This document shows positions 12,290 to 58,145 of a stretch of 64,000 nucleotides of DNA, piece by piece. This DNA comes from Closterium sp. NIES-65. Lineage: Eukaryota > Streptophyta > Zygnematophyceae > Desmidiales > Closteriaceae. Each line of letters opens with the position of its first letter. Position 1 is the first letter of the stretch. The notes under the pieces are model-generated. The model saw nothing but the letters and a program-made list of their open reading frames with translations, searched no databases and was not told where the DNA came from. The stretch covers positions 186,001 to 250,000 of the forward strand of contig CANXME010002332.1 of the NCBI GenBank assembly GCA_948144175.1, in the 5' to 3' direction. Position numbers and translations under genes: made by a program.

Positions 12290-12362
12290 CTAACCCTAGT
12301 GGCAATCCATGTCGCTTCATTCCTTGAATAGACATACAACTCTATGAATCTTGTGCCCATGC
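12290..12362 (-). pseudogene. detached copy of hnRNP-like last-exon end
   Basis: On the minus strand this encodes MGTRFIELYVYSRNEATWIA, matching MGTRYIELYLSSRDEATRIA of the real last exon. It lies about 90 bp beyond that gene's stop codon and is followed by unrelated sequence. Confidence 0.85.
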
Positions 12363-12446
12363 ACTAACGGTGCTTGCTCAGAGCAGCCTGTACCTCGCAA
12401 CACCCCCGTTGTCCCACTACCCTTCCCATCCTCCCTCCTTTCCCCC

Positions 12447-15400
12447 TCATCTCTGAGTGCTCGCCCGCGTGGCTATCCTTGTCGCTTCATCCCGCGACGA
12501 CAAATAAAGCTCGATGTATCTCGTGCCCATGCGCTCCCGGTCCTTGCCCAGCGCCGCCCTCGCCTCGTCTGTGGAGCCAAACTCCACGAAGGCCTCCCCT
12601 GTGAGACGGCCGATGCTGTTGGTGATGATATGCACTGCTGCGTCTGCCAGAGGGTACTCGCCAAAGAATTCGAGAATGTCCTGTAGGTGGGAGGGAGGAG
12701 TATGGGGAAGGATGGGGCATGGAGCAGGGGAAAAGGATGCTGTTGGTGATGATGTGCACTGCTGCACCTGCCAGAGGGTACTCGCCGGAGAACTCGAGAA
12801 CGTCCTGATGAGATAGAGGGGAGGACAGCACATGGGGCATGGGGCACGGGGCACAGGGCATGAGAAAGAAGGATGGAGTTGGTGATGCTGTGCATTGCTG
12901 CGTATGGGGGTAATCTCGGAAGAACATGGGGGCAGCAAGGGGAGGGACACGGGCATGGGGAATGGGGCATGGGGCATGAGGCATGGCGCATGAGGCCTGG
13001 AGCATGGGTATGGGGCACAGGACATGGGACATGGGGAATGGAGCATGGAGCATGGGTATGGGGCATGGGAAGAGAAGGATGGCATTGGTGATGATTTGCA
13101 CTGCGCCCTTCCACTGCAACCCACCGCACCCCACTCCACCCCACCGCACCCCACTGCGCTGCACTGCACCCCACAAAGTTACGTGGTCTCACCTTACTAG
13201 TGGCGGAGAACGGCAAACCCCTCATCTTCACAATACTCGACTCCCGCGCTGCAGGGCCTATTCCTCCCTCGGCCCCGCGCCCTCCCCCTCCCCCTCCCCC
13301 TCCGCCTCCCCCATAGGCCGCATGTGCATGCCCGCCCATGCCCTCGCCCCCATACCCCCGCTCCCCCCGCCCCCCTCTATCTTCTGCAGAATAAGCAAGA
13401 AAGGTGTAATGGGGAGTAGGGAGAGCACGGGGAGGGGGAAAAGAAGGATGGCGGGGGAAGAAAAGAAAAGTTGGCTATGACGTTGCGGCACTCTGCTTTT
13501 AAGGCAAAACAGCAGCATAAACGCGAGTGATTGTGTGAATAGGAAAAACCAGAAGGGGGAGAAGGGAGAGCACAGCCGGGGGGGGGGGGGGGGGGGGGGG
13601 AGAGGGGGGGAGAGGGGTAAGGTAAGCAGAGAAGGTTGGCTGTGACAAGGCAATACAGCAGCGTAAACGCGAGTGAGTGAGTGAACAGAAAAAACCAGAA
13701 GGGGGAGAAGGGAGAGCACGAAGGGGTGGGGGTGGGGAGTGTGGGGGCGGAAAGAGGGGGGGGGGGGAGGTAGGGATGAGGGTAAGGGATGGAGAAAAGG
13801 TTGGCTGTGATGTTGCGGCATAAACGTGACTGAGAACCCATCCTCCCCCATGGCCCATCCACCCCCATGGCCCATCCACCCCCATGGCCCATCCACCCCC
13901 ATGGCCCATCCACCCCCATGGCCCATCCACCCCCATGGCCCATCCACCCCCATGGCCCATCCACCCCCATGGCCCACCCACCACATCCCACCCACCTTGC
14001 CCTCCCCCACGCCACCTACCTTGGCCCCCGCCGTGGTAGGTCCCCCCGTCCTGCGCCACCTCGTTGGCGATGGCGTTGTAAAACTCCGCCTTCTTGGCGC
14101 GGAACACCTCGATGTACCGCCGCCCCATGTGCATCTTGTTGCGCTGCCGAGGAAGAGGGGTGGGGGGGAGAGAGGACAGGGGGGACACAAAGGGGGAAAG
14201 GGAGAAAAGGAGATTGGTTCCCTGTTGGTGCGAAACACCTCAATGTGCCGCCGCCCCATGTGCATCTTGTTGCGCTGGAGAATGGGGAGGGGGGGAGGTG
14301 GAGGGGATGGGAAAGTGGGGGGGAAGGACAGTGGGAACGCAAGGGGGAAAGGGGGATTGGTTCCATGTTGGTGCGGAACACCTCGATGTACCGCCGCCCC
14401 AAGTGCATCTTGTTGCGCTGGGGGTGGGGGGGGAAGGGGAGGGGTAGGGGGGAACAAGGGCGGAGGGTACGGGTGGAAGGGGGAAAGCTAGGTCCTTGTT
14501 GGTTCAAGTGTGGGGGAGGCGCGGGGAGGGAAGAAAGACAGGGAGGGACGCAAAGGGGGGGAGGGGCGATGGGTCCTTGTTGGCGCGGAACACAACACCT
14601 CCATGTACCTTCCCCATCCCACCTGCCCCCATCCCACCTGCCCCCATCCCACCTGCCCCCATCCCGCGTCCATCCCCCGCGCCCATCCCGCGCCCACCTC
14701 GCGCCCACCCACCTGTAGTGCAAGCTCGGAGTGGAGAGTGGAGGCGAAGAGCACAAACGCTTCCCCCACGAGGCGATGCTCCTTGCGCACGAATAGAACG
14801 TCCACGATCTCGAGCCCCGCAAAGAAGTCCGCCACGTCCCCCTCCTCCACGCGGAACGGCAGCCCGCGCAGCTTCACCACCGGGATCTGCCGCGCACCTG
14901 CGCGCCCGCCCATCATCCCCGCGCCCCCCCCCATCCCCGCCCCCGGACCCCCGCCCATCATCCCCATCCCGCCCGCGCCCATCATCGCCCCCCCCGGGCC
15001 CCCCATCCCGCCCATTCCCCCCATCCCCGCCATTCCCCCCATTCCCGGCATGCCCCCCATCCCCGCCATTCCTTGCATCCCCCCCATCCCGCCCATTGCG
15101 CCCATTCCGCCCATCCCCCCCATGCCACCCATCCCCGCCATCATCATGAGGTTCATATTGGCGAGCGCGGCCGCGTCCGCTGCGCCCATTCCGCCCATGC
15201 CCTGCGCGCCCGGGGGTGCTGCACCCGCAGGGAAACCCGAACCCGCGCCAGCACCGCCGGCGGGAATCGAACCCACGCCACCAACGCCCGGAGGACCACC
15301 CGCTCCAGCCGCACCGCCCCCAGGAGCACCCGCACCAGCACCACCCGGACCGAAACCGCCCGAACCACCACCACCACCTCCCGGAGCCGCGGCACCACCC

Positions 15401-18307: not shown

Positions 18308-21300
18308 ATGGCTGTTGCGTTTCGTCTCAGCACAGCCCTACTCCCCTCGCTCGCGGCACCCATAGTGTCTCCCACCAACGCCGCAAAGCCCTCCCTTTCT
18401 TCCGCATCCCGCGCCGCCTTGCTACCTTTAATTGCCGTCCGCGCTACCGTTACTCCTCAGCGATCCCCCGCGTGTCGAGCATCCACGGTCGTCGACTCGG
18501 CCACGTCAACAGAAACCATGGCTGACGCGGCAGCTCCGGCGACTGACGTCAACGCGTCCGCTGGCGGCGTCGATTCGCGCAGCGGGTGCAGGATCTGCGC
18601 GGCGGTGACGGCGACGACGGTGGGTGGAATGCGGGAGCAGATGGCGCAGGCCAAGGCGGCGGGAGCGGACACGGCGGAGCTCCGCGTTGACCATTTGACC
18701 GAGTTTGACCCGAGCGTTGACCTCCCTGCGCTCCTAAACGGCCGCTGCCTGCCCGTTATTGTCACATGCCGGTATGCTCCCTTATCCTGCTAAAGTGCTG
18801 CCATCCTGTCACTAGAATGTTGCTAACAGCACGTTGCTAGTCGTCCTACCACTCATACCGTTCCTCCTCTGAGGCGCCTCGAAACTTGTTCCTTTATCCT
18901 GCTGCTGGCATGCTGTCACTAGAATGCTGTCAGCGCGCTGCTACTGGTCCTACCACTCATACTGTTCCTTTCCCCAAGCCCAACCTTTCTTTCCAATCCC
19001 AACCTTTTAGCCCCACGCCCAACATCCCTAACCCCCCATGCAGCCCACGTGGGAGAGGGCGGCAAGTACGCCGACCCAGACGAGGAGAGAACAGTTTCCA
19101 TACCTCTTACCCCTAGGATAATTACCATGCAACGTCCCTATCACCCCGTGCAGCCCCACGTGGGAGGGCGGCAAGTATGCCGACCCGGACGAGGCGAGAA
19201 CAGTTTCCATACCTCTTACCCCTAGGATAATTACCATGCAACGTCCCTATCACCCCGTGCAGCCCCACGTGGGAGGGCGGCAAGTACGCCGACCCGGACG
19301 AGGAGAGGCGGCAGCAGGTGCTGGCGATGGCCATGGAGATGGGAGCTGAGTTCATTGACGTCGAACTGCAGGTAACGCGTACAGGGAGTGGGCATGTCCG
19401 CAAAGGGTAACACCTTATGCAGCGGCAGCAGGTGCTGGCGATGGCCGTGGACATGGGCGCCGAGTTCATTGACGTCGAGCTGCAGGTAGGTAGCTATAAC
19501 GCGTACAGGGTGTAGCATAAGGTGATGGCTGTGGACATGGGCGCCGAGTTCATTGACGTCGAGCTGCAGGTAGGTAGCTATAACGCGTACAGGGTGTAGC
19601 ATCAGGTGATGGCCGTGGACATGAACATGGGCGCTGAGTTCATTGACGCTGAGCTGCAGGTAACCATAACGCGTACAGGGTGCAGCGGCGGGGTGGTGGC
19701 TAGCAATGGTAACAATTGAAGAGCTTGACTCGTTAGAGCTCATCTTAGACTCTCGAGCCTCCTTCCCCTGAGCCTCACGATTCTCTCTCTCTCTCGCCTT
19801 GCACCCCAAACCTTCCCATCTGCCCTCCCCTCCTCCGCAGGTCGCCTCCGAGTTCATCCAGAAGCACGTTGCACCCCGCCGCGCCGCCGCCGCTGCTGCT
19901 GCCGCTGGTGACGGTGTGACTGCAACGCGTGTGATTGTATCGAGCCACAACTACAGCGTGACCCCGCCATTGGAGGAGCTGCGGGCGCTGGTGGCGCGCA
20001 TAGAGGCTGCTGGGGCAGACATTGTCAAGTTCGCCACCACGGCCACTGATATCACTGACAATGCACGCGTGTTCCAGATACTCAAGGAGGCGCAGGTGGG
20101 TGCATGGGTGGGTGCTGGTTTTAGGTGATGTTTGAGGTGGTGAAACCCTGACTGGCGCTGACGTGGTCAAGTTCGCCACCACAGCCACTGATATCACTGA
20201 CAATGCACGCGTGTTCCAGATACTCAAGGAGGCGCAGGTGGGCGGGTTGCTGGGTGGGTGGGTGGGTGGGTACTCGTCTCCCCCCCCAGCGCAGCGCCCC
20301 AGTGCCCCACCACAGCTCTGGTCATGGGTCCTGAGTGCCTCATCAACCGCCTCTTTGCGCCGAAATTATGATGATGCCTGCTCTGCATTCTCTGCCTTAC
20401 TCCCCTCCCCCCACTCCCCATTCCTTCTTCCCTTCCCCTCCTTCCCCCCCGTCTCCCTCGCTCTCCAAGCCCCTCCCCAGCGCCCCACCATAGCACCGGT
20501 GATGGGACCCAAGGGCCTCATCAGGCGCCTCCTCGCACCCAAATGTGATGACTCCATGTGATGACTCCTTGTGATGACTCCATGTGATGACTCCATGTGA
20601 TGACTCCATGTGATGACTCCTTGTGATGACTCCATGTGATGACTCCATGTGATGACTCCATGTGATGACTCCTTGTGATGACTCCTTGTGATGACTCCAT
20701 GTGATGACTCCATGTGATGACTCCTTGTGATGACTCCATGTGATGACTCCATGTGATGACTCCATGTGATGACTCCATGTGATGACTCCTTGTGATGACT
20801 CCTTGTGATGACTCCATGTGATGACTCCATGTGATGACTCCATGTGATGACTCCATGTGATGACTCCATGTGATGACTCCATGTGATGACTCCATGTGAT
20901 GACTCCATGTGATGACTCCTTGTGATGACTCCATGTGATGACTCCATGTGAAGACTCCATGTGATGACTCCTTGTGATGACTCCTTGTGATGACTCCATG
21001 TGATGACTCCATGTGATGACTCCTTGTGATGACTCTATGTGATGACTCCATGTGATGACTCCATGTGATGACTCCATGTGATGACTCCTTGTGATGACTC
21101 CATGTGATGACTCCATGTGATGACTCCATGTGATGACTCCATGTGATGACTCCATGTGATGACTCCATGTGATGACTCCATGTGATGACTCCATGTGATG
21201 ACGCCTGCTCTGGATTGTCAGCTCGGCCTTACCTAACCCTCTCCGCAAATCTCCATTCCTCATCCCTGCCCCCCCCATTCACCCCAGCGCCCCACCATAG

Positions 21301-24300
21301 CACTGGTAATGGGAACCCAAGGGCCTCACCAGTCGCCTGCTCAAGGCTCACGCCCTTCCCCTCTCCCCTCTTCCCCCTCTAACCCCCCCAGCGCCCCACC
21401 ATAGCGCTGGTAATGGGACTCAAGGGCCACATCAGCCGTCTCCTCGCACCGAAATTCAATGACGTCTGCCCTGCCTTACACTCCCCTCTTCCCCCAACCC
21501 CCACAAACCCCCCTCCTCCCTTCCCCCCCCGGTTCCCTCCCCCCTCTCCTCCCTCAGCGCCCCACCATAGTACTGGTAATGGGACCCAAGGGCCTCATCA
21601 GCCGCCTCCTCGCGCCCAAAGGCAATGGCATCTGCTTTGCACTCTCTCCGCCCCCCTTCCCCCACCCTCCATCCCTCGTTCCCTTCCCCCCCCCAGCGCC
21701 CCACAATCGCATTGGTGATGGGTCCCAAGGGCCTCATCAGCCGTCTCCTCGCGCCCAAATTCAACGCCTTTCTCACCTTCGGGGCGATCACCCCTGGCGC
21801 TGAGTCAGCGCCAGGTCAGCCGACGGTCGCTGAGCTGGCGGGCACGTACAGGCTGGCGGGCGTGGGCCCGGCAACGCACGTGTTTGGGCTGGTGGGGAAC
21901 CCGGTGGCGCACAGCAAGGGCCCTGTGCTGCACAATGCGGCGTTAAGGCATGTGGGGTATGACGGCGTGTACGTGCCATTCCTGGTGGACGATGTTCCGG
22001 AGTTTCTGAAGACGTTTGACGGCCCCGATTTCAAGGGGTTCAGGTGGGTGGAGGTGGAGGTGGAGTGGACTAGGGCCTTTTATGTTGTCTGCTTTTTTTT
22101 TCTTCGTCCCGCTTTCTCCATCCACCAGTGCCCTGTATGCGTTCCCCACTAGCTGTCCCCCTCGCTTCTTCTCCTCCCCGTTCTCCCCCCCCACCCCCCC
22201 CCCTCCCCAACACTCACCCCCCCCTTATCACTCCCCCACCACAACACCCCCCGCCCCTTTCTCGTCCCCACCACCCAGTGTGACCATTCCGCACAAGCTC
22301 GCGGCGTTGGAGTGCTGCTACGATGTGGAACCTCTCCCCTCCCCCCTTCTCTTTCCAACCCCCATCATTCGCCTCCCTTCCCCTCCCCCCTTCTCTTTCC
22401 AACCCCCATCATTCGCCTCCCTTCCCCTCCCCCTTCACCGCTCACCCCTTCCCACACCGTCTCTCCCAGTGTGACCATTCCCCACAAGCTCGCGGCGTTG
22501 GAGTGCTGCCACGATGTGGAACCTCTTGCCAAGGTGACCCTGCTGTAGTGACCTTGCAGTAGTGACCTTGCAGTAGTGACCTTGCAGTAGTGACCTTGCT
22601 GTAGTGACCTTGCAGTAGTGACCTTGCAGTAGTGACCTTGCTCATGTGCTGTGCGCTTGCGTAGATGACCTTGTTTGGTGGTGTGCCATATATCTCCCTG
22701 TACTCTCACCTCACACGCATGTTACCATGTGTCTCCGACCCTTGTTGTGTGTCATGCATGACACGGTTCCATTGTTGGCATCAAGTGTATGCTCCCACCT
22801 CTCTCCCTTCCTCTACCACTAATTCGCATGCGGGTCTCCCCCCATTAGAGCATAGGTGCTGCCAACACCATCATTCGGGGAGAAGATGGGCGGCTGAAGG
22901 GGTACAACACAGACTGCATGGCAGCCGTAGAGGCCATCGAGGACGGGCTCAGGCAGGCAGACGGATGCAGCAGATACACAGAATCCTTTTCCCCTGTCAT
23001 CTCAGTCTCCTCTCCCCTTCTCTTCCCATCTCCGTCCCTCTGTCTACCCATCAGAGCATAGGCGCTGCCAACACCATCATTCAAGGGGAGGGCGGCCGGC
23101 TCAAGGGGTACAACACAGACTGCATGGCGGCCATAGAGGCCATCGAGGACGGGCTCAGGCAGGCAGACGGAGGCAGCATCAGCAGTAGCAACGCGGAAGC
23201 TTCCTCCTCGCCCCTCGCCGGCCGACTCTTTGTGGTTGTGGGGGCGGGGGGTGCCGGGAGGGCTCTGGCTTTCGGTGCTAAAGCAAAGGGTGCGGATGTG
23301 ATTGTAACAAATAGGAGCTACGGCAAGGCGGAGGCGCTGGCTGCGGCTGTGGGCGGCACTGCCGTGCCTCTGCCGTCTGGTTCTGGTGACGTGGCAGCGG
23401 GTGGCGATGAGCTGGCGGCGGTGTTGCAGGAGATGCAGAGAGGGAGGAGTGGGCGTGCTGTGCTGGCAAATACGACCTCTGTGGGCATGCACCCTCATGT
23501 GGACGATACTCCGGTCAGCAAGGTGAGAGATATGTGTCTGCAGTTGTGTTTTGTTCGAGTATTCTCAAACCACATTAGGAGATGCAGAGGGGGAGGAGTG
23601 GGCGTGCTGTGTTGTTGAATACGACTCCGGTGGGACTGCACCCTCGCGTGGACGATGCACCTATCAGCAAGGTCTGTTCCTGGTGGATGGGCAGCATGAC
23701 AGAATTGTCACCCTTCTCTTATTGTCACATTTCTCTTATCGTCACACTTCTCTTATTGTCACCCTTCTCTTATTGTCACCCTTCTCTTATTGTCACCCTT
23801 CTCTTATTGTCACACTTCCACAACATATGTCGATGTTTCCCTTTTGCATGTTCCCAAGCAGGCTGTGTTGCAGGAGTGCAGTCTGGTGTTTGACGCGGCA
23901 CCCACCCCCATGAAGACCCCGCTTCATCAAGGATGCAAAGCAGGCAGGAGCCTCAACGATCACACTTCCACTAACACATTTCGGTATCCTTATCTTTCTT
24001 GTGTTCCCAAGCAGGCTGTGTTGCAGGAGTGCAGTCTGGTGTTTGATGCAGTCTACACCCCCATGGAAACCCGTCTGCTCAAAGAGGCGAAGCAGGCAGG
24101 AGCTGCAACGGTCAGTGGCGTCGAGATGTTTGTTGGCCAGGCGGCTCGACAATTCGAGCTCTTCACTGGAAAGCCAGGTGGGTGTACTTTCATCATACGT
24201 ATGGATATTAAAGTTTTAAGCTTACGCCATGCGTTATCTTGTTTGCGCCCTTGTGTTGATGTACCCACTCCCTTTTTCTGTTATACCCCCCACCCCCCTG

Positions 24301-27800: not shown

Positions 27801-28203
27801 GCTAGCAGCACTCAACCCCAACCTCACCCATCTCAACGTCTTCGCCCTCGCCCACTCCCTCACATACATCTCTCTCGTCTCCGCCGCCCGCCACTGGACC
27901 TCCCTCGAAACCCTCATCCTGCCCTTCTGCGAGCGAGACGACCGAGCCGACCTGCCCGACCTGGTGAAAGTCCTTTCCAGCTGCCCGAAGCTGAAAGTTT
28001 TCTCGATCGGGCTGTGTGCGCATAGGTATTTTGAAGCGTTGTTGGAGCTGCTGGGATCGTGTTCGTGGCTGGAGTATGTGTATCTGTATGAGAGCTGCCA
28101 GGAGGGGCATGAATTCACCATGGCTGATCTCAGGAAGGCTGCTGCCAAGGAGAAGAGGAAACCGCTGATTTGCTACGCTGCTGGGTCGGCTGAGGGGATC
28201 TGA
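24885..28203 (+). CDS. F-box/LRR protein
   Basis: Likely substrate receptor of an SCF ubiquitin ligase. Four exons: 24885-25304, 25635-26465, 26911-27267, 27697-28203; 2115 bp, 704 residues, all junctions in phase 0. Residues 1-112 are Ala/Arg-rich linker. The F-box spans about 113-155 across the exon 1/2 junction: LNNVPDPVLLKILMRVES, DRASCALVSPRWFWLEKRS. LRR-like segments follow (VTHLDLS, ITSLSLNCS-type, ELHVLELLHL), then a Gly/Thr/Pro-rich insert (about 245-390), then more LRRs (LRHLVISQT, LLTYLDLGNLKIE, CKQLRVLGD, LRSLLIRCNADITDAGLVAL, LTHLNVFALAHSLTYISL, LKVFSIGLCAHRYF). The C-terminus is basic, KEKRKP. The subfamily is not assigned. The last exon is echoed three times downstream. Confidence 0.85.
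25335..25400 (+). repeat. two echoes of F-box exon 1 donor
   Basis: TGCGCGCTGGTAATGCCCTT occurs at the true donor (25,297-25,316) and twice more within 100 bp. Any of the three GTAATG donors could be used; only the first gives the short in-frame exon 1. Confidence 0.85.
27299..27430 (+). repeat. echo of F-box exon 3 end
   Basis: Repeats the last 125 bp of exon 3 (VYVGPHATGVGVEAVAGKCK to MHVMNK) and its donor. The frame stays open and most changes are silent or conservative. Confidence 0.92.
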
Positions 28204-28261: not shown

Positions 28262-28916
28262 ATGGAGTGGAGTGGAGTGGAGTGGAGTGGAGTGGTGTTT
28301 TGTGAGGTGCTGGAGTCGTGTTCGTTGCTGGAGTATGTGTATCTGTATGAGAGCTGCCAGGAGGGGCATGAATTCACCATGGCTGATCTCAGGAAGGCTG
28401 CTGCCAAGGAGAAGAGGAAACCGCTGATTTGCTACGCTGCTGGGTCGGCTGAGGGGATCTGATGACGAGTGGGTGGTGAGTTGCGGCTGCAGCTGCAGTT
28501 GGTGACTACTGGGTGGGGAAATGGAGTGGAGTGGAGTGGAGTGGTGTTTTGTGAGGTGCTGGAGTCGTGTTCGTCGCTGGAGTATGTGTATCTGTATGAG
28601 AGCTGCCAGGAGGGGCATGAATTCACCATGGCTGATCTCAGGAAGGCTGCTGCCAAGAAGAAGAGGAAACCGCTGATTTGCTACGCTGCTGGGTCGGCTG
28701 AGGGGATTTGAGGATAAATGAGCCGTGAGTTGCGGATGGGGCGGCTGCAGTTGGTGCCTACCGGGTGGGGAATTGGAGTGGAGTGGAGTGGAGTGGAGTG
28801 GTGTTTTGTGAGCTGCTGGGGTCGTGCTCGTGGCTGGAGTATTTGTATCTGTATGAGAGCTGCCAGGAGGCTGCTGCTTAGTCTCTCTTGGTATACTGCT
28901 GGGTCGGCTGAGTCAT
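28262..28916 (+). repeat. three tandem copies of F-box gene end
   Basis: Copies at about 28,300-28,462, 28,541-28,711 and 28,801-28,916 of the last 165 bp of exon 4 (SWLEYVYLYESCQEGHEFTM onwards), including stop codon and 3' flank. Each is preceded by a GGAGTGGAGT run of variable length. The first two are nearly identical to the gene; the third is worn and shortened. Confidence 0.92.
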
Positions 28917-32548: not shown

Positions 32549-33027
32549 CCATTCCGAGATGACTGTTAGTGACCATGGCAGGTGGTTTAGTGCTGAATGA
32601 TAGCTTCATGTGATGTGCCACACCACTCAGGGTGGGGTGTGTGGTGGTGGGGGAGGAGACGATGGGTTTGGCTGGTGGTCATCTGACTTAGTCTTCTGAA
32701 ATGAGTGTGGTGTACATACAAAACTTGTTGATAGATACTTACCGTTATACCCAGGTGAAGCTGTAATTGTGGTGTGGAGGAAGTAAATCCATGTGTACCA
32801 TTCCAAAAAACTAGTAGATTGGTCAGCTACCTACGGTACTAGCTACATTGAACATTCCTTATACAATATGTCAGAATATTCAATTACTCTCTGCGTACAC
32901 TTCAATGGCCCCCTTACATTGCACTGAAGTTTCTCTGTTCGGCAGTATCAACCCTCTGCCCCGAACTGATACCCTTGTCGTCGATCAACAGCTGTCTCAT
33001 GGACTTTTAATCGATTAAAGAATCAGC
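32549..33027. other. intergenic between convergent genes
   Basis: AT-richer spacer between two convergent stop codons; it should contain both 3' UTRs and polyadenylation sites. GGTGG-rich near the OBAP end. No further feature seen. Confidence 0.5.
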
Positions 33028-38550: not shown

Positions 38551-38566
38551 ACACGAGTGTAACCAC
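38551..38566 (+). repeat. LINE target-site duplication, 3' copy
   Basis: ACACGAGTGTAACCAC, identical to 42,215-42,230. It directly abuts the minus-strand element end TTGTCAATAAA. Confidence 0.88.
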
Positions 38567-42214: not shown

Positions 42215-42230
42215 ACACGAGTGTAACCAC
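42215..42230 (+). repeat. LINE target-site duplication, 5' copy
   Basis: ACACGAGTGTAACCAC, identical to 38,551-38,566; the next bases outward differ on both sides. Confidence 0.88.
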
Positions 42231-48600: not shown

Positions 48601-51600
48601 GACGGGCTCTATCACCTCGCCACAGGGGGCGCGGGGCTGGGCGGCGGGGGCTTCGGGGGCGGGGGAGGGGGAGAGGAAGCGGGAGAAGGGGGTTTGGGAG
48701 CGGAAGGGGAGGGGATGAGGGGGGGTGGAGGGGGTGTGGGCAGGTACCAGCACAGGGCGCTAGTGGTGGAGGTTCCAACTGTCTTCTCGTTTCGCAAGGC
48801 GGCAGCGCGGGTGCTTGCTATTCTGGGTAAGCTGGCTTGCTATATCGGGTAGCCTGACTTGCTATTTCTGGTAAGGTGCCTTGCCATCTTGGTTTGCTAG
48901 CATATCTCCCTTCAATCTGTCCCGTTCGTGGGCATTGAAAGGGAGAACCGGCTGATGCAGGAGGCGCTATGCACTAGGCCAGTGGGGCAGAGGTGCATGC
49001 ATGCGCGTGCTGGTGATGGAGGAAGGGGGCATGCGCGGCATGGCAATGGTGCGGATGCTGCGCAGCTAATCCCACTCCTCCTCCCTCTCATTTTATCCTG
49101 TCCCTGCTCGCTCTCCACTGTGCTATGATGTGCTGTGATGTGCTGTACTGTGTGGTGTGGTGTGGTGCGGTGCGGTGCACTGCAGGTGAAAATCGGCTGG
49201 TACAGGGAGCATTGTGCACGAGGGCAGTGGGGCAGAGGGGTGTGCGTATACTAGTGATGGATGGGGGCGGCATGCGGGGCATGGCCATGGTGCAGATGCT
49301 GCGGCAGATCGAGGGGCGCACGGGCAGGCGCGTGCACGAGCTGTTTGACCTCGTGTGTGGCACGTCCACTGGTGGCATGCTGGCAGCTGAGTTGGGAATC
49401 AAGCGCCTCACTTTGGACCAGTGTGATGATGTCTACAGGCGACTGGGTGAGTGGGTTTTGGGGGGTTTGTGTGGCTGTAGGGTAAAGGGAACTGGGTTTG
49501 GGCAGGCGTGTGCACGAGCTGTTTGACCTCGTGTGTGGCACGTGCAGTGGCGGCATGCTGGCAGCTGAACTGGGGATCAAACAGTTGACTCTGGATCAGT
49601 GTGATGACGTCTACAGGCGCCTGGGTGAGTGGCTTTCAGAGGTTTTCAGGGGTTTCTGTGGCTCTAGGGTGAGGTGCGTTTGGGGCACGAGCTGTTTGAC
49701 CTCGTGTGTGGCACGTGCACTGGTGGCATGCTGGCGGCTGAGCTGGGGATCAAACGGTTGACTCTGGAACAGTGTGATGACGTCTACAGGCGCCTGGGTG
49801 AGTGGGGCTTCAGGGGTTTCACATGTGCTGGTTTTCTATGGGTGTGGTTTCTGTAAGGTTTGTCGTGTGAAGTGGATTCTGGGCACGAGTTGTTCGACCT
49901 GGCATGTGGCACGTGCACGGGCGGCATGCTGGCAGCAGAGCTGGGCATTAAGCGCCTCCCAACACCGTTCCAGGAGCTCTTTAAAGATCAGTGCGATGAT
50001 GTGCACAGCCGCCCCACAACACCACCACCCCGCCCCCTCCTTCCACCATGCCCCTTGCTTTCCCCCCTCCTCCCAGGCAGGCTGGTGTTTTCAAACATGG
50101 AGGCAATGGAGTCGGCATCATGGCGGAACAAGCCGACTGTAGATGTGCCTCTAAGTCAAGTTGCGACCAACCCCTGCTCTCTCCGTGTTCAACCCCCTCT
50201 CTCCCTTCCCACCAGGCAAGCTGGTGTTTTTGAACGTGGAGGCGATGGATTTGGCGTCGTCGCAGGACAAGCTGGACCAGCTGTACAAGAGCTCCTCGCA
50301 TAACCCCTTTTTGCACACCCCTTATTCTCTCCATGGTTCAACCCCCTTCCCCTCCCGCCAGGCAAGCTGGTGTTCTCAAACTCGGAGGCAATGGAGTCGG
50401 CATCGTGGCAGGACAAGCTGGACCAGCTATATTGTATCCGATACCAACCCTTCACCACGCCCCTTGCTATCCCCGTGTTCAACTCTTCCTTTGTTGAACC
50501 CTAATCAACCCCTCCCCTCTCACCAGGCAAGCTGGTATTCTCAAACGTGGAGGCGATGGAGTCGGCGTCGTGGCGGGACAAGCTGGACCAGCTGTACAAG
50601 AGCTCGTCTCAGAACTACCGCGTGGTGGTGCACGGCAGCAAGGTGTGCAGAGGGGTGACGGGTGGGTGCATGTTAGGTGCTGCAAGGACCATGGGGGGCG
50701 GTTGTACACAAGCTTGACCAGCTGTACAAAAGCTCGTCTCAGAACTACCGTGTGGTGGTGCATGGCAGCAAGGTGAGCAGAGGGGTGCTTGCAAGGTAGC
50801 CGTATAGCTGAGCATGGTTTTCTCACTGGGGACAACACAGATGGCCGTGTTTCAAGAGCTTTCAGAGTTTGTTACTAGTGCACTTAATGGGTATGAAGTA
50901 AGTGTGTGCACTTCATGCGCTGTCTGTTAGGCATTTATATTTAAATTGATATCCACTTTCATTCAGGTGTGCATTTCTGTCCACGGTCAATTTGGCTCTG
51001 GAAAAACTTATACAATGTTTGGAGATTCCGCTGAGGATGCCTTCCGTGGAGTTATTTCAAGATTAGTTGAGCAGATGCTCAGCTGATTTTGAAATAACTC
51101 CACAAAGAGCATTCTTAGTGAAGTATCTGAACATAGCGTACGTCTTTTCGAATCCAGTTTGACCTTAGGCAAAAATGCACACTTAAATGTAAATGGATGT
51201 CAATTTAGATGTAGTTGCCTAACAGCGCATCACGCCCTCTCTCCTCTCCCGCCACCTCATCTTTCCTCGAAGACGCAGCACAACGCGGAGCATTTTGAGC
51301 AGTTATTGCAGGGAGATGTGTTGTCCCTGATTCTGCCCCCCCCCCCTCCTCCTTTTCCCCTTCCCCTCCACTCTTCTCCTGTTCCTCCCACTCGCAGCAC
51401 AACGCGGAGCAGTTTGAGCAGCTGTTACATGACATGTGCACGGACGACGATAGGGAACTGCTCTGGAATCCGCAGTCATATTCCCTTGCTTGCTCCTGCT
51501 TCTCCCCTTCCCTGCGCGCATTCCCTCTCATTCCTCCCACCCACTGGCAGCACAACGCGGAGCAGTTTGAGCAGCTGCTGCAGGAGATGTGCACGGATGA

Positions 51601-54600
51601 CGATGGGGACCTGCTCATCGACTCCGCAGTCAAGGGCGGGCCCAAGGTCTTCGTGGTGTCCACCCTCGTTAGTGTCACACCCGCCACACCCTTCGTCTTC
51701 CGAAACTACCAGGTGAGGCTCTTACCAATTGCTAATTGCTGAGTGTGGGGTGCACTCTGCCAATAGCCTTCCTGCCCCCTAACCCTCCATCCAACGGTTT
51801 CCATGCCATCCACCCGGGGCTATCCGCGTGCAAGTTGCAGCCCTTTCTGGTCTGCGCCTTCTTTCCCCGGCATCACTCCCCTAACCGTTGCTGCTACTTC
51901 CTTCTTCCCTCATCCCTCATCCCTCTTCCCTCTTCCCCCATCCCCAACAGTACCCTCCTGGGACCAGGGAGACCCCCCACCCCCCAGCCGACGGGTCCCC
52001 CATGCCCATGCCGCCCCCCCGCATGCGCACATCGGGGCTATCCGCGCTGCTAGGCACGTGCAAGATGCAGCTCTGGCAGGCCATCCGAGCCTCCTCCGCA
52101 GCTCCGTACTACTTCGACGATTTCGCTGTTGGCCCCCACCGCTGGCAAGACGGGGCTATTTTCGCAAATAACCCTACAATTGTCGCGGTGAGAGAGGCCC
52201 GGCTGCTCTGGCCGGACCTGCCGCTGGACTGCGTGGTGAGCCTCGGGTGCGGCTCGGCGCCGCCGAAGCTGCGCGGGAGGCCCGGGTGGAGGGTGGCGGA
52301 TACGGGGCAGGTGCTGGCCGAGGCTGCCACGTCGGTGGAGCAGGCGGATCTGGCGTTTGAGTCGGTGATTCCCATGCTGCCCGATGTGAAATACTACCGG
52401 TTCAACCCAGGTCAGTGGTGAAGCGAGAGGGAATGATTGCAGGTGAGAAATCTGAACGAGATCACCTGCAAGCTGGTATTTGAGACGTCTCAAAACACGT
52501 TTTTTGAGAGTTATAACGAAGAGTTTCGAGATTTGTTAAGGGAGCAATACAAAGAATGGAGATAATATCCTTGACATCATCAAGGGACATAGAATTTTCC
52601 ACGGTAAGAACGGCAACACTACATTCACTGGCATGACATTAGTCACTTCGGCATCTATAGCGGATGCAGTCGATGTTCTTGCTTATGCAGGAAAAAGAAG
52701 GTGAGGATAATCCATCTAACAAATCTCGAAATCGGATAATCCCTCACCTTCTTTTTCCTGCATAAGCAAGAACATTGACTGCATCCGCCATAGATGTCAC
52801 AGTGACTAATGTCATGCCAGTGACTGTAGTGTTACCGCTCTTACCGTAGAATATTCTGTGTCCCTTGCTGCTGTCAAGAATATTCTCTCCATCCCTTGTG
52901 ATTGCTGCCGTACTGCTAGAAAATCCGTTTAACAATTTTTAAACTCTTCCTTATAAATCCAAAGAAAAGTGATTTGAACTTTCTACCTTCCTGAGAGTCA
53001 CCCTTCCAAACCCTTCCTACCCCTTCTAAGTGCTCCCAAACCTCCCTTTTAGCCCTCTAGTACACTAGTGAACAATCGGTGCAGCATGGACTTGACCTGG
53101 GCAAGACCGATCCAGCAGAGTGGGAGAAGCTGGAGCTGTTGCCCTTCAAACCTTTCAAACCCCTTTCAACCGCTCCCGAACCCCTCTTCTAACCGCTCCC
53201 AACCTTTTGATACACGCAGTGGACGAGCTGTGTGGCATGGACTTGGATGAAACGGACCCAGCGGAGTGGGGGAAACTGGAAACAGCCACGGATGAGTACC
53301 TCACAGCAGTCAACTGCGACATGGCAGAGCTCTGCAAGTACCTGCGCCTCTGCTCCCTCCACCTCCCCTTCCCGTTCCCCTTTCCCCCTTTCCCTTTCCT
53401 CCGTCCCCATTCCCCCTCCCCGCTTCCCGCTTCCCCTTTCCCCTTTCCCCCTCCTCCCCAAGCAGTGGACGAGCGGTGTGGCATGGATCAGGATAAAACA
53501 GACCCAGCGGAGTGGGAAAAACTTGAAACCGCAACTGATGAGTATTTGACAGCAGTCAACCGCAACATGGCCGAGCTCTGCAAGTACCTGCGCCTCTGCT
53601 CCCTCCACTTCCCCTCCACATTGAATACTTCCCACCACCCTTCCCTCCTCCGTCTTCCCCCTTCCCCTTTCCTGTTTCTCGCTATCCCTTTTTCCCTTGC
53701 CCTTTCCCCCTCCTCCCCAAGCAGTGGACGAGCGGTGTGGCATGGATCTGGACGAAACAGACCCAGCGGAGTGGGAAAAACTGGAGACAGCCACTGACGA
53801 GTACCTCACAGCAGTCAACCGCGACATGGCAGAGCTCTGCAAGTACCTGCGCCTCTGCGTGGCTCAGGAGGAGGCAGACAAGGCCGCCGCCGCAGCACTG
53901 TTAGGCGGAGCAGCAGCAGCAGCAGCGGCAGCGGCAGGGGGGTATAGGAGTCGGCCGGGGAGTCGGCCGGGAAGCATGCCCGGCACCCCGAGAGCCGCTG
54001 GCTACTCTAGCCCTGCAGCAGCACCTGTTTACCCTCCCATTGTGCTCCCAGCATCGCCTAGGTCGCCCAAGACGTCTGCCCCCGCGTCGCCCCTGGCCAA
54101 GGTGATTGGGCCGCAGGGGGATCAGAGGAGGGGAGCCAGTGGCAGCTCGCTGCACGCGATCAATCCATACCGTCGGCACGTGCTGCTCGTGGACTCCATC
54201 CGGCCGTCCGTTGCCCGCCGGCCCTGGCAGCACTCGGCTCGTCTCTGCTGCTCTGCCATCGGCGGCGGCGGTGGCTATATCAACAACAGCAGCATGGTTT
54301 CTTCTCATGAAGCAGCAGCAGCGAGGCTCGCAGGGATCATCAGCAGTATCAGCACGGACGGTGGCAGCACTGGCAGTCTGCTGTCCCACCTGCGCCGCCC
54401 CCCTAAGGTAGACGAGCATATCTGTGAGCCCTGCGACCCTCCCTCTGGCAGCACTGCTGCTGCTGCTGCGTCCACTGGGCTGTATTTCTCCACCTCTCTC
54501 CAGTCCCCGTTCAGCTCCCGACCCTCCAGCGTGCCTGGGAGTCCCCGAATCACAGGGTCAGCTTCGGCCATGGCTGCTGCTGCAGCTGCGGCTGCTGGAG

Positions 54601-57600
54601 CATCTGCTAGTGGTGGCGCTAGTCCCCATTTTGGGTCTGCTGCAGGACTGGCAGCACCAGCAGCAGCAGGGATAGCTTCAGCCGGAGCTGCTGGGATGAG
54701 GAGGTCCGGTAGCAGCACGGCCATAGCAGCAGGTCTGGGAATAGGCTCGGGAGGCTCGGGTGGTGCGGGTGGAGGTTCGGGAGGGACAGTGGGAAGGGCA
54801 GGTGTCCGAAGGGGAGTGGATGGAAGGGGAGGAGGGGGTGGTGGTTCCCCCGTGTTCCGAGTTCCCTCCAACCTCGATCTTAACAAGCCAACAGGGGAAA
54901 CCTCACGTCCTGCTACTGCCAGCATCACTCCTGCTGCTGCTGCTACTCGTGCTGGGGCTGGGTCTAGTACCAGAGCAACTAGTACAGAGGACACACCTCT
55001 GGGAGTGGAAGCAAGTTTCCGGCCCTGGATGGCCGAAGGGGAGGACTCAGACGGGGAAGAGGAGGGGCAGGGAGGCAGGAGCACCAGGCAAGCAGGCACG
55101 GGAGCGGTCACACGGGGTTACACGCCAACATCAGCATCAGGCGCAGCAGGGGCAACGGTATCGGCAACAGCAGGGAGAGCAGCGGCGGCGGCGGCGGCGG
55201 CGGCAGCAACGCTGCCGAGTGTGGGGGCACGGCTGAAGCCAGTGTGGACGGAGGGCGGGTCGAGGAGGGCGGTGGCGCTGTCGCTGTCTCCCCCGGCAGC
55301 AGCACTCATGCAGCGCCTGCAGCAGGCTGCTGGCGTGGGCCTAGTGCACCTGGCGCTACCCTGCGACCAGTCAGGCTTCATCCTCACGTGAGTGCCATTG
55401 CTCACTTGCTCTCCCTGGTCTGGCTCATGCGCAAGGGCCTTCCCTGGCTCCCGGTCTCAGCTGTTCTCTCGGCCCATCCGCCCTCTTGCCCTCACCCTAT
55501 GTACTGCTCTGCCTGCCCATTGTCCTGTGTTGTTCTCCTCCTCAGCTGGACCACTGAGGCCCTGTCAGTTGCACAACTCAGTGATTCCACCTCCCACCTG
55601 CTCTCTCACACCGTCCCTCATCTTTCTGTTTTTCTCCTCTCCTCTCCTCCCTCCTCAGCTGGTCATCTGAGGTCATGTCAGTGGCAGAGCCTAGTGACTC
55701 CGCCACGCGCCTGCTTGCCCGTGCCATTGACAGCATCGGCTGGTGGAACCCCGCTCGCCGCCATGCTGCTGCCCTCGCCCACTCTCTTGCTGCTTCTGCT
55801 GATGCTGCTGGTGTTACCGCTGCTGCTGCTTCTGCTGCTGCCGGTGCTGCCAAAGCTCCAGTTTCTGGTTCAGGTGGTCTTGCTTCGGCGCCTGGTTCGG
55901 CCTCAGCTTCGGCGGCTGATCTGGTCGGGCTTGCTGCCACTCACCATGGAGCCAGCTCCCCCGGGCTTGGTCCAGTGAACGCAGCAGGTTCGGCAAGTGC
56001 AAGACTGGCAGCAGGTTCGGGATCAGCAGGCTTGGCAGGGGTGAGTGCTTCGGGTAGTGGCGGCGGCAGTGCGAGGGGCATCAGTGGAACTCCGAGTTCC
56101 TCTGGCGCACCTGTCACTGCTGCTGCCACGGCAGCTGTTGCTGCTAGCCCTGCTGGTGACTCCGCTGCTGCTGCTACTGGTGCAGCAGGTGGTGTGAGAG
56201 GTGCCGGGCCGCCTGGTGCTACTGGGGGAGCGGTTGGAGGAGCAGGAGGAGGGGGAGGGAGGGGGAGTAGGGGAGCGGGGGAGAAGGCACCGGCGAGTTT
56301 GTGGGAGTTGGTGCATGTGGCGAGCTGCTTTGTGGTGGATGGGGTGCTGCATCGCTTCATGGGCTGCCACACTCAGGTATGCCACGTGCTGCTCCTCTTT
56401 CAAGCCACCTCAAAAGCAGTCTGTGGGAGTTGGTGCATGTGGCGAGCTGTTTCGTGGTGGATGGGGTGCTGCATCGCTTCATGGGCTGCCACACTCAGGT
56501 GTGCCAAGTCTTGTCCTTTTCAATGTATGGGTTGTCACACGTGCTATGCCAAGTGGCTTGCCCTCACTGCTACTTCTCCAAACCCTGGGTTGTCACACGT
56601 GCTATGCCAAGTGGCTTGCCCTCACTGCTACTTCTCCAAACCCTGGGTTGTCACACGTGCTATGCCAAGTGGCTTGCCCTCACTGCTACTTCTCCAAACC
56701 CATCACTGAGTGTTTCCCCCGACATCCCTTTCTGGCTGCCACTGTTTCCCTGTTTGTCATTTTCCTGCGCAGATCCTGCCGGGCGGCATGGAGGTGAGCA
56801 CGTATCTCTTCAGCTGCACGGCTCCCGCCGTCCACCTCACAGAAGCTGACATTCGCTGGATGGTGAGTTGGGATGGAGATGGGGTGATTGTTAGAGGGAT
56901 TGAAGGTTGGAGGGCTGGATTATGGATGGCGCCTGGTGGCCCCCGCCGTCCACCTCACAGAAGCTGACATTCGCTGGATGGTGAGTTGGGGTCGGGTGGT
57001 GGCATGCTGGGTGGCGGGTGGTGGGTGGTAGGTGGCGGACGGTGGATGGTGGATGGTTGGCTATGCATGGGTGTCGGATGGTGATTTGCATTTGAATGAT
57101 GGCTGGATGGCTGCCTCGTGGCTCACTGGCGTGTGGCTTCATGCTGCATGCTGGTGGAATCTCTATGTGGGTCATGTTTGGGCACCAAACGGTTGTTGTT
57201 CTGTGTGTGCACATTCTGCCTTGCATGCTGGTGGAATCTCACTCTATTTTCTCTTCCATCGAATCTTCTCTTCCATCTTTCCTTGTCTTCCTGCTGCCGA
57301 CCTGTTTCCTGCCTCTCCGTCGCCCTGCCTCTGCCCTGCAACCACCCACACAGGCATCTTCATGGAGGGATTGCATCATAGTGTGCACGGGCCAACAGGG
57401 GGCTCCCACCGCCCTTATACACACCTTTCCTTACCTCTCTGCCTCCGTGCCCTTCCTATTCTGCCTCCCTGCCTGCCTGTAACCACCCACACAGGCTTCT
57501 TCATGGAGGGATCGCATCATAGTGTGCACGGGCCAACAGGGGGCTCCCACCGCCCTTATACACACCTTTCCTTACCTCTCTGCCTTCGTGCCCTTCCCAT

Positions 57601-58145
57601 TCTGCCTCCCTGCCTGCCTGTAACCACCCACACAGGCTTCTTCATGGAGGGATCGCATCATAGTGTGCACGGGCAAACAGGGGCCCCCCACCGCCCTCAC
57701 AGAAGCTTTTCTGGACACCGGAGCCAAGGCTGTCATCGCTCCTCCTCCTGCCGGTTCCTCTTCATTCCCTGGTCACTTTGCATTAAATGCTGCTGCTGCG
57801 GCAGGGGCAAGTGGCATGTCTCCTTGCGTCGACTCGGCCTATCAAGGAGTTGTGGGTTTGGATTTAGCGGCGGCAGCAGCTGGTGGGGATGTGGGTAGGT
57901 TGGGGAAGAGGGAGGCCTGGTTGGATGACGTGGAGGCTTGGATTGGCCGGGAGGATCGGGTGTTTGGTTTAGCGGTGGAGAAAGAGCAGGCAAGTGCTAA
58001 AGTGGAGGAAGAGAGGTTGGGGTTGTTTTTGAGGGATCTGTACAGTGGGTTGTTTGATGATGGATTCTCGGCTCCTGTAGCTTTGGAGGAGACCCTGAAG
58101 GCACATCCGGGGATGAAGTTCTCATGTCATGTCAAGAAAAGGTAA
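42678..58145 (+). CDS. PLAI: PLA-I type patatin phospholipase with LRR and ARM repeats
   Basis: Lipid acyl hydrolase, homologue of Arabidopsis pPLAI. Fifteen exons: 42678-44261, 44685-44832, 45777-45855, 46370-46523, 46662-46880, 47565-47810, 48514-48826, 49186-49446, 50527-50642, 51551-51712, 51951-52410, 53725-55387, 55659-56376, 56773-56862, 57636-58145; 6723 bp, 2240 residues, all phases consistent. LRRs about 529-655 (LEVLEVENNRLSALPGEIGQ, LRVLRLFNNPLEFFPEI). ARM repeats about 656-914 (ICEDRENRAAIGKDESAIRQ, VEQACHALSSLA, ALMAVGNLSF). Patatin from about 930: DGGGMRG oxyanion loop, GTSTGG nucleophile Ser near 975, Asp in WQDGAIFANNPT near 1160. C-terminal family segments include LTEADIRWM and RDRIIVCTGKQGPPTALTEA. 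The Arabidopsis protein has about 1300 residues; the surplus is a 528-residue N-terminal exon and a low-complexity Ala/Gly/Ser linker in exons 12-13. Confidence 0.95.
44360..45240 (+). repeat. echoes around PLA-I exon 2
   Basis: Left copies at about 44,366-44,515 and 44,560-44,640 repeat the start (NFTMNLPLLEVLEVENN-like). Right copies at 44,905-44,965, 45,065-45,125 and 45,215-45,240 repeat the end (LRVLRADNNQLTTVP) with the CCCAGTGAGTCACGC donor, increasingly degraded. GGTCTGTGCTGTGTG and its complement form a small hairpin at 45,147-45,201. Confidence 0.87.
45262..45484. repeat. foldback insert K1 with coiled-coil fragment
   Basis: Inverted repeat in PLA-I intron 2. The left arm (about 45,319-45,390) reads CTGAGGGAAAAGGAGATAGA, then GCTGATGCGGGAGAAGGAG. 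The right arm (45,415-45,484) is its diverged complement (CTCCCGCATGAGCTCCATCT). Left-arm translation gives a heptad-rich ATKKRISDVQTQLREKEIEL stretch. Probably a fragment of a coiled-coil protein gene, possibly the same kinesin as K2 and K3. Confidence 0.65.
46020..46270 (+). repeat. two echoes of PLA-I exon 4 start
   Basis: At about 46,028-46,100 and 46,195-46,265: CAG plus CLADLRVLRLFNNLLEFIPE, and CLADLKVLRLFNNPLEFFPE with one changed codon. Both lose homology after EIL. The intact exon starts at 46,370. Confidence 0.92.
46951..47022 (+). repeat. echo of PLA-I exon 5 end
   Basis: Repeats SKDASAIRQFVGMVLADSKN plus donor GTGGTGAGT, about 70 bp after the true donor. Confidence 0.88.
47211..47493 (+). 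repeat. two echoes of PLA-I exon 6 start
   Basis: Copies at 47,211-47,322 and 47,381-47,490 of the first 37 codons of exon 6, with acceptors. Copy 1 differs from the true exon at seven codons, all silent; copy 2 is also silent-only until the end. Neither has a usable donor where the homology stops. Confidence 0.95.
47811..48100 (+). repeat. echoes of PLA-I exon 6 end
   Basis: 47,811-47,845 repeats the last 30 bp and donor. 47,952-48,100 repeats about 140 bp of the exon end (QQPEILVSVLRVIANLALAS) with a shifted tail and its own donor. Confidence 0.9.
48930..49068 (+). repeat. echo of PLA-I exon 8 start
   Basis: Degraded copy of GENRLVQGALCTRAVGQR through the oxyanion-loop region, here with the DGGG codons disrupted. 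Precedes the intact exon 8 (49,186). Confidence 0.88.
49503..50000 (+). repeat. three echoes of PLA-I exon 8 end, Ser to Cys
   Basis: At about 49,503-49,627, 49,683-49,797 and 49,880-50,000. Each repeats HELFDLVCGT through DDVYRRLG (third copy partly replaced). In all three the patatin nucleophile box reads GTCSGG or GTCTGG, whereas exon 8 reads GTSTGG. Copies 1 and 2 end in the exon's own G/GTGAGTGG donor. Confidence 0.93.
50080..50780 (+). repeat. echoes around PLA-I exon 9
   Basis: Left copies at about 50,080, 50,219 and 50,367: CAG plus KLVFSNVEAMESAS with drift, of 55-90 bp. The true exon is 50,527-50,642. A right copy at 50,703-50,773 repeats LDQLYKSSSQNYRVVVHGSK with donor GTGAGC. A strict left/right border pattern. 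Confidence 0.92.
50820..51233. repeat. foldback insert K2 with kinesin motor fragment
   Basis: AT-rich insert in PLA-I intron 9. 50,841-50,898 encodes AVFQELSEFVTSALNGYE and ends in a GTAAGT donor. From 50,967, after TCATTCAG, comes VCISVHGQFGSGKTYTMFGD, a kinesin P-loop (GQTGSGKTYTM) exon, then AFRGVISRLVEQ. The left arm (50,917-51,076) pairs with a diverged inverted copy (51,080-51,227). The tip is nearly perfect (GTGGAGTTATTTC and its complement at 51,047-51,107); the outer parts have many substitutions. Confidence 0.85.
51271..51480 (+). repeat. two echoes of PLA-I exon 10 start
   Basis: At about 51,276-51,325 and 51,399-51,480: CAG plus HNAEHFEQLLQGD and HNAEQFEQLLHDMCTDDDRE. The intact exon starts at 51,551. 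Confidence 0.9.
52498..52975. repeat. foldback insert K3 with kinesin motor fragment
   Basis: Clean inverted duplication in PLA-I intron 11. Plus arm about 52,500-52,713, loop about 20 nt (52,714-52,733), minus arm about 52,734-52,975; the inner 150 bp match at about 85% by eye. The plus arm encodes ESYNEEFRDLLREQYK and GHRIFHGKNGNTTFTGMTLV, ending AYAGKRR at a GTGAGG donor. The minus arm encodes GHRIFYGKSGNTTVTGMTLV. This matches the kinesin-14 motor segment YNExxRDLL...HDxNGNTxVTxLT. AT-richer than the surrounding introns. Confidence 0.9.
53068..53620 (+). repeat. three echoes of PLA-I exon 12 start
   Basis: A worn trace at about 53,080-53,140, then long copies at 53,220-53,352 and 53,467-53,602: CAG plus DERCGMDQDKTDPAEWEKLE through AELCKYLRLC, then C/T-rich intron. 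Copy 53,467 differs from the true exon (53,725) at 12 codons, nine silent. Confidence 0.94.
55541..55605 (+). repeat. echo of PLA-I exon 13 start
   Basis: CTCCTCAG plus CTGGACCACTGAGGCCCTGTC, encoding WTTEALSVAQLSDSTSHLL against WSSEVMSVAEPSDSATRLL of the true exon at 55,659. Confidence 0.85.
56413..56702 (+). repeat. PLA-I exon 13 end echo and 58-bp array
   Basis: 56,413-56,502 repeats LWELVHVASCFVVDGVLHRF through GCHTQ and a donor. 56,529-56,702 is three units of 58 bp beginning GGGTTGTCACACGTGCTATG. The unit contains WVVTRAMPSGLPSLLLLQT-type coding similarity only by chance of frame. Confidence 0.9.
56935..56990 (+). repeat. echo of PLA-I exon 14 end
   Basis: Repeats APAVHLTEADIRWM coding (CCCCGCCGTCCACCTCACAG onward) plus donor GTGAGTTGGG. 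Confidence 0.92.
57350..57565 (+). repeat. two echoes of PLA-I exon 15 start
   Basis: At about 57,354-57,420 and 57,495-57,565: CACACAG plus ASSWRDRIIVCTGQQGAPTA, then intron-like sequence; units repeat at about 141 bp. The intact exon starts at 57,636. Confidence 0.93.

Follow-up and report, generated by a model that had tools for sequence, protein, structure and literature searches.

Why should the introns of an alga hold fragments of the exons next to them? The question is raised by a stretch of 64,000 nucleotides (the window) on contig CANXME010002332.1 of Closterium sp. NIES-65, hereafter C2034, in an assembly of 874 Mb and 2400 contigs. An earlier note on this DNA had claimed some 60 partial exon copies in six of eight genes, and had proposed that a single mechanism repeatedly duplicates segments spanning intron-exon borders. 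We refer to these copies as echoes and to the intact exon beside them as the live exon.

Exon echoes at splice borders

Manual models of the six genes, built with GT-AG introns, comprise 39 exons in total, and these were searched against the introns and 800-bp flanks. This revealed 70 matches, of which 39 were located in the intron directly upstream of the parent exon, 26 in the one directly downstream, two elsewhere in the same gene and three in another gene, these last being flanks that overlap the neighbouring gene at 100% identity. Dinucleotide-shuffled controls gave no match in any of five shuffles, and a reverse-complemented intron control gave three, all classed as other-gene matches and not inspected singly. 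After merging one split match, 64 copies were counted, 38 upstream and 26 downstream, all on the sense strand. This number is a lower bound, as shorter copies below the threshold exist (Table 1). The distance from copy to exon is 32–1394 bp (median 202), and the exon part measures 26–159 nt (median 68). The two remaining genes, at ~16.5–17.9 kb and ~58.7–59.6 kb, had no repeat cluster in the local survey, in agreement with the earlier count.

The copies upstream reach the exon start in 34 of 38 cases, and the AG is kept in all 34 (one-base shift allowed). Downstream of internal exons the exon end is reached in 17 of 21 copies and the GT kept in 15 of these 17, although this retention is partly built in, since counted copies had to align to the exon edge. 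The other five downstream copies derive from terminal exons, where there is no donor to be copied; three of them reach the exon end. Among the 64 copies, none upstream carries the exon end only and none downstream the exon start only. The earlier statement that left copies keep acceptor and exon start, right copies exon end and donor, and that splice sites are thereby planted in introns, is thus borne out, the AG or GT being retained in most edge-reaching copies. As a sign of mechanism the arrangement holds as a pattern but is no separate rule, since it follows from the geometry of duplication. A duplicated segment running from the intron to mid-exon must leave acceptor and exon start on the left and a whole exon on the right, and one running from mid-exon into the intron leaves a whole exon followed by exon end and donor. 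A copy lying entirely within an exon would disrupt the protein, and hence be lost. Furthermore, downstream copies of terminal exons without a donor (two of the three of F-box exon 4, and that of hnRNP-like exon 4) are unlike the product of a splice-site-specific process.

One or more copies occur at half of the splice borders (33 of 66) and in most introns (25 of 33). Introns with echoes have a mean length of 669 bp vs 337 bp without, and echo number correlates with intron length (Spearman 0.78), consistent with the proposal that introns have been enlarged. No new intron is required, as the gene models use only introns between live exons, lengthened. A survey of local repeats gave 53 clusters, of which 35 span an exon border, as in intron gain by tandem duplication, four are intron-only (one being two echoes of the same exon), 13 are intergenic, one is of another kind and none is exon-only. 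Ten of the 13 intergenic clusters, in 25 kb, are minisatellite arrays.

Introners and mutually exclusive exons are two classes with which such copies may be compared. Insertion of mobile or Introner-like elements would suit the fact that introns are affected at several places in the genome. However, every copy has its match in the exon next to it: of the 67 same-gene matches, 65 lie in an adjacent intron, and the three other-gene matches are the overlapping flanks. As a main cause such insertion is refuted, the copies matching the adjacent exon only and not related sequence across genes, and we give it next to no credence. Mutually exclusive exons would be whole exons with both splice sites, whereas 62 of the 64 copies are partial and two (of DUF2039-like exons 2 and 3) whole or nearly whole. 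The inner edges are not splice-like, with AG near the start of 11 of 21 downstream copies (null 8.0, P 0.12) and GT near the end of 6 of 38 upstream copies (null 9.1). That the copies are whole small exons with their own splice sites is therefore ruled out; inner edges of this kind are as expected of arbitrary break points.

Pfam supports the gene models with matches to DHquinase_I, Shikimate_dh_N, SDH_C, DUF1264, Patatin and LRR segments, the RRM match of the hnRNP-like gene being weak (E 0.018). DUF2039 is the unconfirmed label of the earlier note. Our OBAP model agrees at 100% identity with the NCBI protein P0242, which comes from the second NIES-65 copy (99–100% per exon over exons 2–4), and the predicted NIES-65 protein P0121 is 100% identical to the window over 43479-44042 and 44685-44831. 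In the DUF2039-like gene, joining exons 2 and 3 in frame would need a possible 10-nt micro-exon within 34020-34190, identified by eye.

Table 1. Gene models, live exons and their echoes, and associated repeats (window positions)
Feature	Strand	Whole cluster	Live exon	Upstream echoes	Downstream echoes	Remarks
hnRNP-like RRM gene model	-					4 exons, no internal stop
hnRNP-like exon 2	-	14020-14417	14020-14143	14225-14274, 14368-14417		
hnRNP-like exon 4	-	12279-12906	12447-12680	12736-12804, 12872-12906	12279-12388	terminal; second upstream copy short of exon edge
DHQ-SDH model	+					8 exons, no internal stop
DHQ-SDH exon 2	+	19044-19659	19263-19371	19044-19089, 19154-19198	19422-19485, 19521-19569, 19599-19659	upstream: exon bases 1-45; 19422-19485 starts at exon base 46
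DHQ-SDH exon 3	+		19841-20095		20152-20237	
DHQ-SDH exon 4	+	20304-22043	21697-22043	20304-20367, 20481-20544, 21288-21342, 21392-21459, 21558-21620		
13-bp minisatellite		20543-21202				among upstream echoes of DHQ-SDH exon 4
DHQ-SDH exon 5	+		22470-22533	22279-22335		
DHQ-SDH exon 6	+		23055-23522	22849-22972	23577-23671	
DHQ-SDH exon 7	+		24015-24177	23862-23962		
F-box/LRR model	+					4 exons, no internal stop
F-box/LRR exon 3	+		26911-27267		27299-27423	
F-box/LRR exon 4	+		27697-28203		28304-28462, 28553-28711, 28810-28870	terminal; first two reach exon end (stop region), third short of end
OBAP model	+					4 exons, no internal stop
OBAP exon 2	+		30720-30948	30197-30304, 30384-30466, 30546-30634		30384-30466 is two joined pieces
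OBAP exon 3	+		31200-31282		31326-31365, 31452-31491	first with GT; second with GA, donor lost
OBAP exon 4	+		32000-32548	31869-31945	32642-32675	terminal; downstream copy weak, short of exon end
DUF2039-like model	-					4 exons, incomplete, last exon cut at 200 nt
DUF2039-like exon	-		34524-34587	34666-34729		whole-exon copy
DUF2039-like exon	-		33959-34006		33729-33774	nearly whole copy; donor-bearing 33-bp repeats 33835-33971
DUF2039-like last exon	-		33149-33348	33408-33449		exon as modelled
pPLA-I patatin model	+					15 exons, 2240 aa, no internal stop
pPLA-I exon 2	+		44685-44832	44456-44502, 44561-44631	44903-44959, 45086-45108, 45214-45239	
pPLA-I exon 4	+		46370-46523	46028-46096, 46200-46277		
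pPLA-I exon 5	+		46662-46880		46958-47019	
pPLA-I exon 6	+		47565-47810	47212-47324, 47381-47486	47817-47842, 47952-48074	47817-47842 is a 32-bp unit
pPLA-I exon 8	+		49186-49446	48943-49062	49500-49624, 49685-49797, 49883-49958	patatin start
pPLA-I exon 9	+		50527-50642	50077-50133, 50216-50304, 50362-50431	50708-50772	
pPLA-I exon 10	+		51551-51712	51279-51320, 51398-51478		
pPLA-I exon 12	+		53725-55387	53094-53135, 53220-53353, 53466-53599		
pPLA-I exon 13	+		55659-56376	55546-55602	56418-56498	
pPLA-I exon 14	+		56773-56862		56938-56980	
pPLA-I exon 15	+		57636-58141	57354-57415, 57495-57556		end as modelled; stop of frame at 58145
Sub-threshold copies		25289-25396, 34975-35248				local repeat clusters
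Sub-threshold copies		48813-48884				22-bp units

Second gene copies, other contigs and other strains

The clusters of five of the six genes recur on a second contig, C2261, at 99.6–99.7% identity. Against the window this contig shows 133 substitutions and 20 indels in 52,856 aligned columns (some overlapping alignments counted), and six of the indels are at least 10 bp long: four in minisatellites, one in a C run and one of 16 bp outside genes. The earlier note had worried that haplotypes had been interleaved by the assembly. Near-identical locus pairs do exist in this genome, and interleaved alleles or paralogues could account for copies that diverge in an exon-like manner. Nevertheless, the excerpted text of the NIES-65 genome paper (PMC10407611) describes PacBio reads with an N50 of 30 kb, far longer than any cluster, and 110 Gb of data, processed with Canu, Arrow, 10x scaffolding and Pilon. 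The repetition of five genes' clusters in C2261, and the extra translated exon copies in predicted proteins of strain Naga37s-1 and of strain NIES-54, which was assembled by another method, likewise argue against an artefact. We consider assembly interleaving a very unlikely source of the copies.

The hnRNP-like gene differs between the two contigs: its identity to C2261 drops from 99.6% to 84.9–89.2% (aligned pieces) to the left of window position 14009. This switch coincides with the end of exon 2, beside echoes found only in C2261. By eye, downstream echoes of exons 2 and 3 are present in C2261 and absent in the window copy, a gain in one or a loss in the other; the window copy provides an empty site, as looked for with repair-mediated duplications. 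The exon 3 echo has 88% identity over 89 bases, and of a 151-base query over the exon 3 spacer of C2261 the first 55 bases were found nowhere else. The introns of the two hnRNP-like copies differ by whole blocks. Furthermore, a donor-bearing 32-bp repeat after pPLA-I exon 6 has 2.2 copies in the window vs ~11 in C2261.

The locus pairs, 0.25% apart here, include at least one strongly diverged block (~8.76–14.0 kb of the window), and citrate synthase loci are paired as well; this region, like others, seems to be present twice in the assembly. A long interspersed nuclear element (LINE)-like reverse-transcriptase element with one 1304-aa open frame on the minus strand (38566-42215) is absent from C2261, and is probably a recent insertion. 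The gene cluster is enclosed by a long inverted similarity between 4573-12126 and 59984-63999 (~70–88% in longer pieces). Fold-back elements in pPLA-I introns 2, 9 and 11 (45318-45484, 50924-51225 and 52537-52912) look like small inverted-repeat transposons.

Echoes are not confined to the window; confinement to it would, by the earlier note, have been grounds for giving up its claim. Twenty random 10-kb stretches of the same contig contained 62 echo-type clusters, unevenly spread: four stretches held 41 and six held none. By comparison, the genic parts of the window hold 24 such clusters in 23.3 kb and 13 in 15.6 kb, and the remaining parts one in 12.2 kb, none in 5.8 kb and two in 7.1 kb. 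Ten open reading frames from four of the random stretches gave only weak Pfam matches: AA_permease_2 twice in L012 (1.3e-05 and 0.023), SecA_SW in L016 (1.1e-05), VanA_C in L015 (0.0043) and none for the other six frames. Ten exon seeds came from citrate synthase loci on three further contigs; the loci were selected with Pfam and blind to copies. The seeds gave 21 extra matches on the same strand and none on the opposite strand, with at least one in seven of ten seeds; two of the 21 form a reciprocal pair within one seed, and four of 34–37 bp are maybe minisatellite.

In the predicted proteins of strain Naga37s-1 we found extra translated copies of pPLA-I exons 4, 8 and 9, the same exons that are echoed in the NIES-65 window. 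A predicted protein of NIES-54 carries two extra copies of the start of F-box exon 2, an exon for which no echo was found in the window. OBAP proteins from other strains added little to this comparison. Closterium gene models in the database (P0121, P0122 and P0001) take an echo as a coding exon or read through it.

Divergence of the echoes and their possible origin

The exon part of the echoes has a mean identity of 0.903 to the live exon vs 0.749 for the adjoining 40 intron bases, and in 49 of 54 pairs the intron had the smaller value (Wilcoxon P 1e-9). Of 51 flanks measured, nine gave no usable value (0, some being alignment failures). In the 42 usable pairs the match past the splice site extends for at most 25 bp in 27 and for more than 25 bp in 15, some exceeding 100 bp (DHQ-SDH exon 2, hnRNP-like exon 2, pPLA-I exons 2, 8 and 15). 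Part of the copies look like plain duplication, and part do not.

Ordinary random tandem duplication would copy segments of ~80–260 bp anywhere and by any mechanism, the live exon keeping border copies recognisable while intron-only copies fade. The left/right arrangement would then result from geometry alone. Long intron matches are as expected, as is the flank identity of 0.92–1.00 found in four exons for a single copy of each (pPLA-I exon 15, DHQ-SDH exon 2, F-box exon 4, OBAP exon 3). The abundance of minisatellites (115 overlapping rows in the repeat listing) and the block-wise differences between the hnRNP-like introns also point this way. On the other hand, among 16 usable pairs with an exon identity of at least 94%, the intron match is at most 25 bp in 12 and longer in four. 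It also speaks against this account that intergenic clusters are mostly minisatellite arrays, and 35 border clusters against four intron-only ones are hard to get by fading alone.

The codon positions tell against it as well. Mismatches between live exon and echo number 106/1566, 65/1576 and 280/1561 at positions 1, 2 and 3, a third-position excess of 3.16 when base-corrected (raw ratio of third vs first plus second 3.30; exon bootstrap 2.54–4.31). In 500 simulated runs of a neutral echo beside its own parent the ratio reached at most 2.12, so that the neutral drift expected after simple tandem duplication is not what we observe. Gene conversion from the echo's own parent cannot, by reasoning alone, lift the ratio above 2. 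On balance we regard ordinary duplication as the main rival of the reading that we favour, though as less likely than not.

Could the echoes instead be alternative or decoy exons under selection? The third-position excess would suit this, as would the three long copies of pPLA-I exon 6 with 26 synonymous and no nonsynonymous differences, the 51 of 64 copies without frameshift or stop, the kept AG and GT, and the echo included in the sequence of database protein P0121. Against this, most gaps in the alignments (27 of 31) disrupt the reading frame. When 84 amino-acid differences were polarised with other strains (ungapped copies, three genes), the live residue alone matched these strains in 69, the echo alone in five, both in eight and neither in two; gaps and differences together indicate that echoes decay. 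Nor are the inner ends splice sites. Recent changes between C2261 and the window, few in number, hit echoes at 8/4518, close to live third positions (10/4299), with 8/8603 at first and second positions, 11/14136 in introns and 58/19585 in intergenic DNA. Coding constraint on the echoes is less likely and was set aside; a functional role strikes us as improbable.

We tentatively favour a third possibility, without quite giving it an even chance: that the echoes are scars left where breaks were repaired locally, time and again, from an anchor in the exon. We infer that a break falls within an exon, that copying runs outward through the exon border and that the extended strand is then end-joined. 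One whole exon would be restored, and a stub of the old one would stay beside it, with the acceptor on the left or the donor on the right. Protein-disrupting copies would be lost, whereas intronic stubs, passed over by splicing, would persist, drift, be re-duplicated or deleted, and so enlarge the intron. This proposal is supported by the adjacency and sense orientation of the copies, by the border-spanning clusters, by the rise of intron length with echo number, by the arbitrary inner edges and by turnover between the two gene copies. In addition, six short exons have both upstream and downstream copies, and here the distance between upstream end and downstream start is smaller than expected by chance (sum 96 vs a permutation mean of 219, P 0.037). 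It is smallest in DHQ-SDH exon 2, with bases 1–45 and 46–109, as for two stubs of one break; with six exons only, this test is weak. If the template were sometimes a diverged copy, short intron homology, third-position excess and confinement to borders would also fit.

Several observations weigh against exon-anchored repair. A sister template predicts an intron match up to the join, for which the median room is 82 bp, and most usable pairs, including those of high exon identity, fall short of this. The simulated codon-position ratios and the weakness of the complementary-halves test count here too, and beyond the splice signals 21 of 51 flanks outscore every unrelated flank. The 15 pairs with long intron matches speak for plain duplication of the copies concerned, and because of them we lowered our confidence in exon-anchored repair slightly, from an even chance to just short of it, and raised that in plain duplication by an equally small step. 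A diverged template is also put in question: a genome search with DHQ-SDH exon 1 gave no diverged copy above 76% over 84 bases (best candidates only scored), and the translated intron tails of Naga37s-1 look, by eye, fairly close to NIES-65. The similar rates of recent change in echoes and live third positions, from few events, count against such a template too.

Alternatively, the live exon may often be a newcomer from a diverged allele, the echoes being the two halves of the displaced resident exon; we hold this to be rather unlikely. Introns too different to pair would leave exons as the sole handles for recombination, and exchange exon by exon would leave half-exon scars. The alga hybridises, and hybrid gene exchange serves as a class for comparison. 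If true, such replacement would explain why copies keep to borders, why their intron flanks are unrelated and why third positions differ in excess, and would account for the complementary halves and for the change of haplotype at hnRNP-like exon 2. A fixed offset of allelic divergence was also tried and fitted poorly, the excess being larger in the two older classes (0.053, 0.172, 0.173).

Known duplications and the growth of introns

Local repair duplication has precedents. In vertebrates, repair-mediated duplications of nearby DNA, 50 bp or longer, have been described, with 824 close ones in the human genome (PMC2671141). Like the echoes they are local copies of tens to hundreds of bases, ascribed there to break repair with strand copying, although some single echoes are shorter than 50 bp. 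Partial exon/intron pieces do occur among the vertebrate donors (4/824, Table 2 of that paper), but annotated donors are mostly introns, whereas the Closterium copies affect half of the splice borders in six genes and almost nothing but borders; detection methods differ. In helq-1 worms, tandem duplications arise from end joining of aborted synthesis-dependent annealing (PMC8654963, in part). There, a direct repeat results when the extended strand is joined to the opposite end of the break, and this is the model that we have adopted for the echoes. The worm duplications come from mutants and span ~100 bp to 10 kb (median ~1 kb), unlike the short-range copies at exon borders of a wild Closterium strain.

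A tandem duplication across an intron-exon boundary in potato RdRp also left an exon piece in an intron, but that is a single case said, in the available portion of the paper, to create a new intron (PMC4974935), whereas Closterium has dozens that enlarge existing ones. Protruding break ends filled in by Pol alpha-primase and joined likewise yield short direct repeats (PMC8355091, partial text), although we would expect such fill-in to give exact local copies that include the intron part. Our literature search, made among open-licence papers, found no genome with such an echo density, which to that extent agrees with the earlier note, and the excerpts of the NIES-65 genome paper (PMC10407611) make no mention of exon copies inside introns. 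The single-mechanism proposal of the note is partly supported, its recurrence and border-spanning parts holding up.

For annotators, the echo-derived segments carried by database proteins of NIES-65, NIES-54 and Naga37s-1 mean false repeats in the genus. More broadly, introns are here seen growing by copying the edges of their own exons, a direct view of intron growth by faulty local copying. Two questions can thereby be put to the test: the way in which introns lengthen in a close relative of land plants, and the choice of the correct AG or GT in splicing when several share a near-identical exon context.

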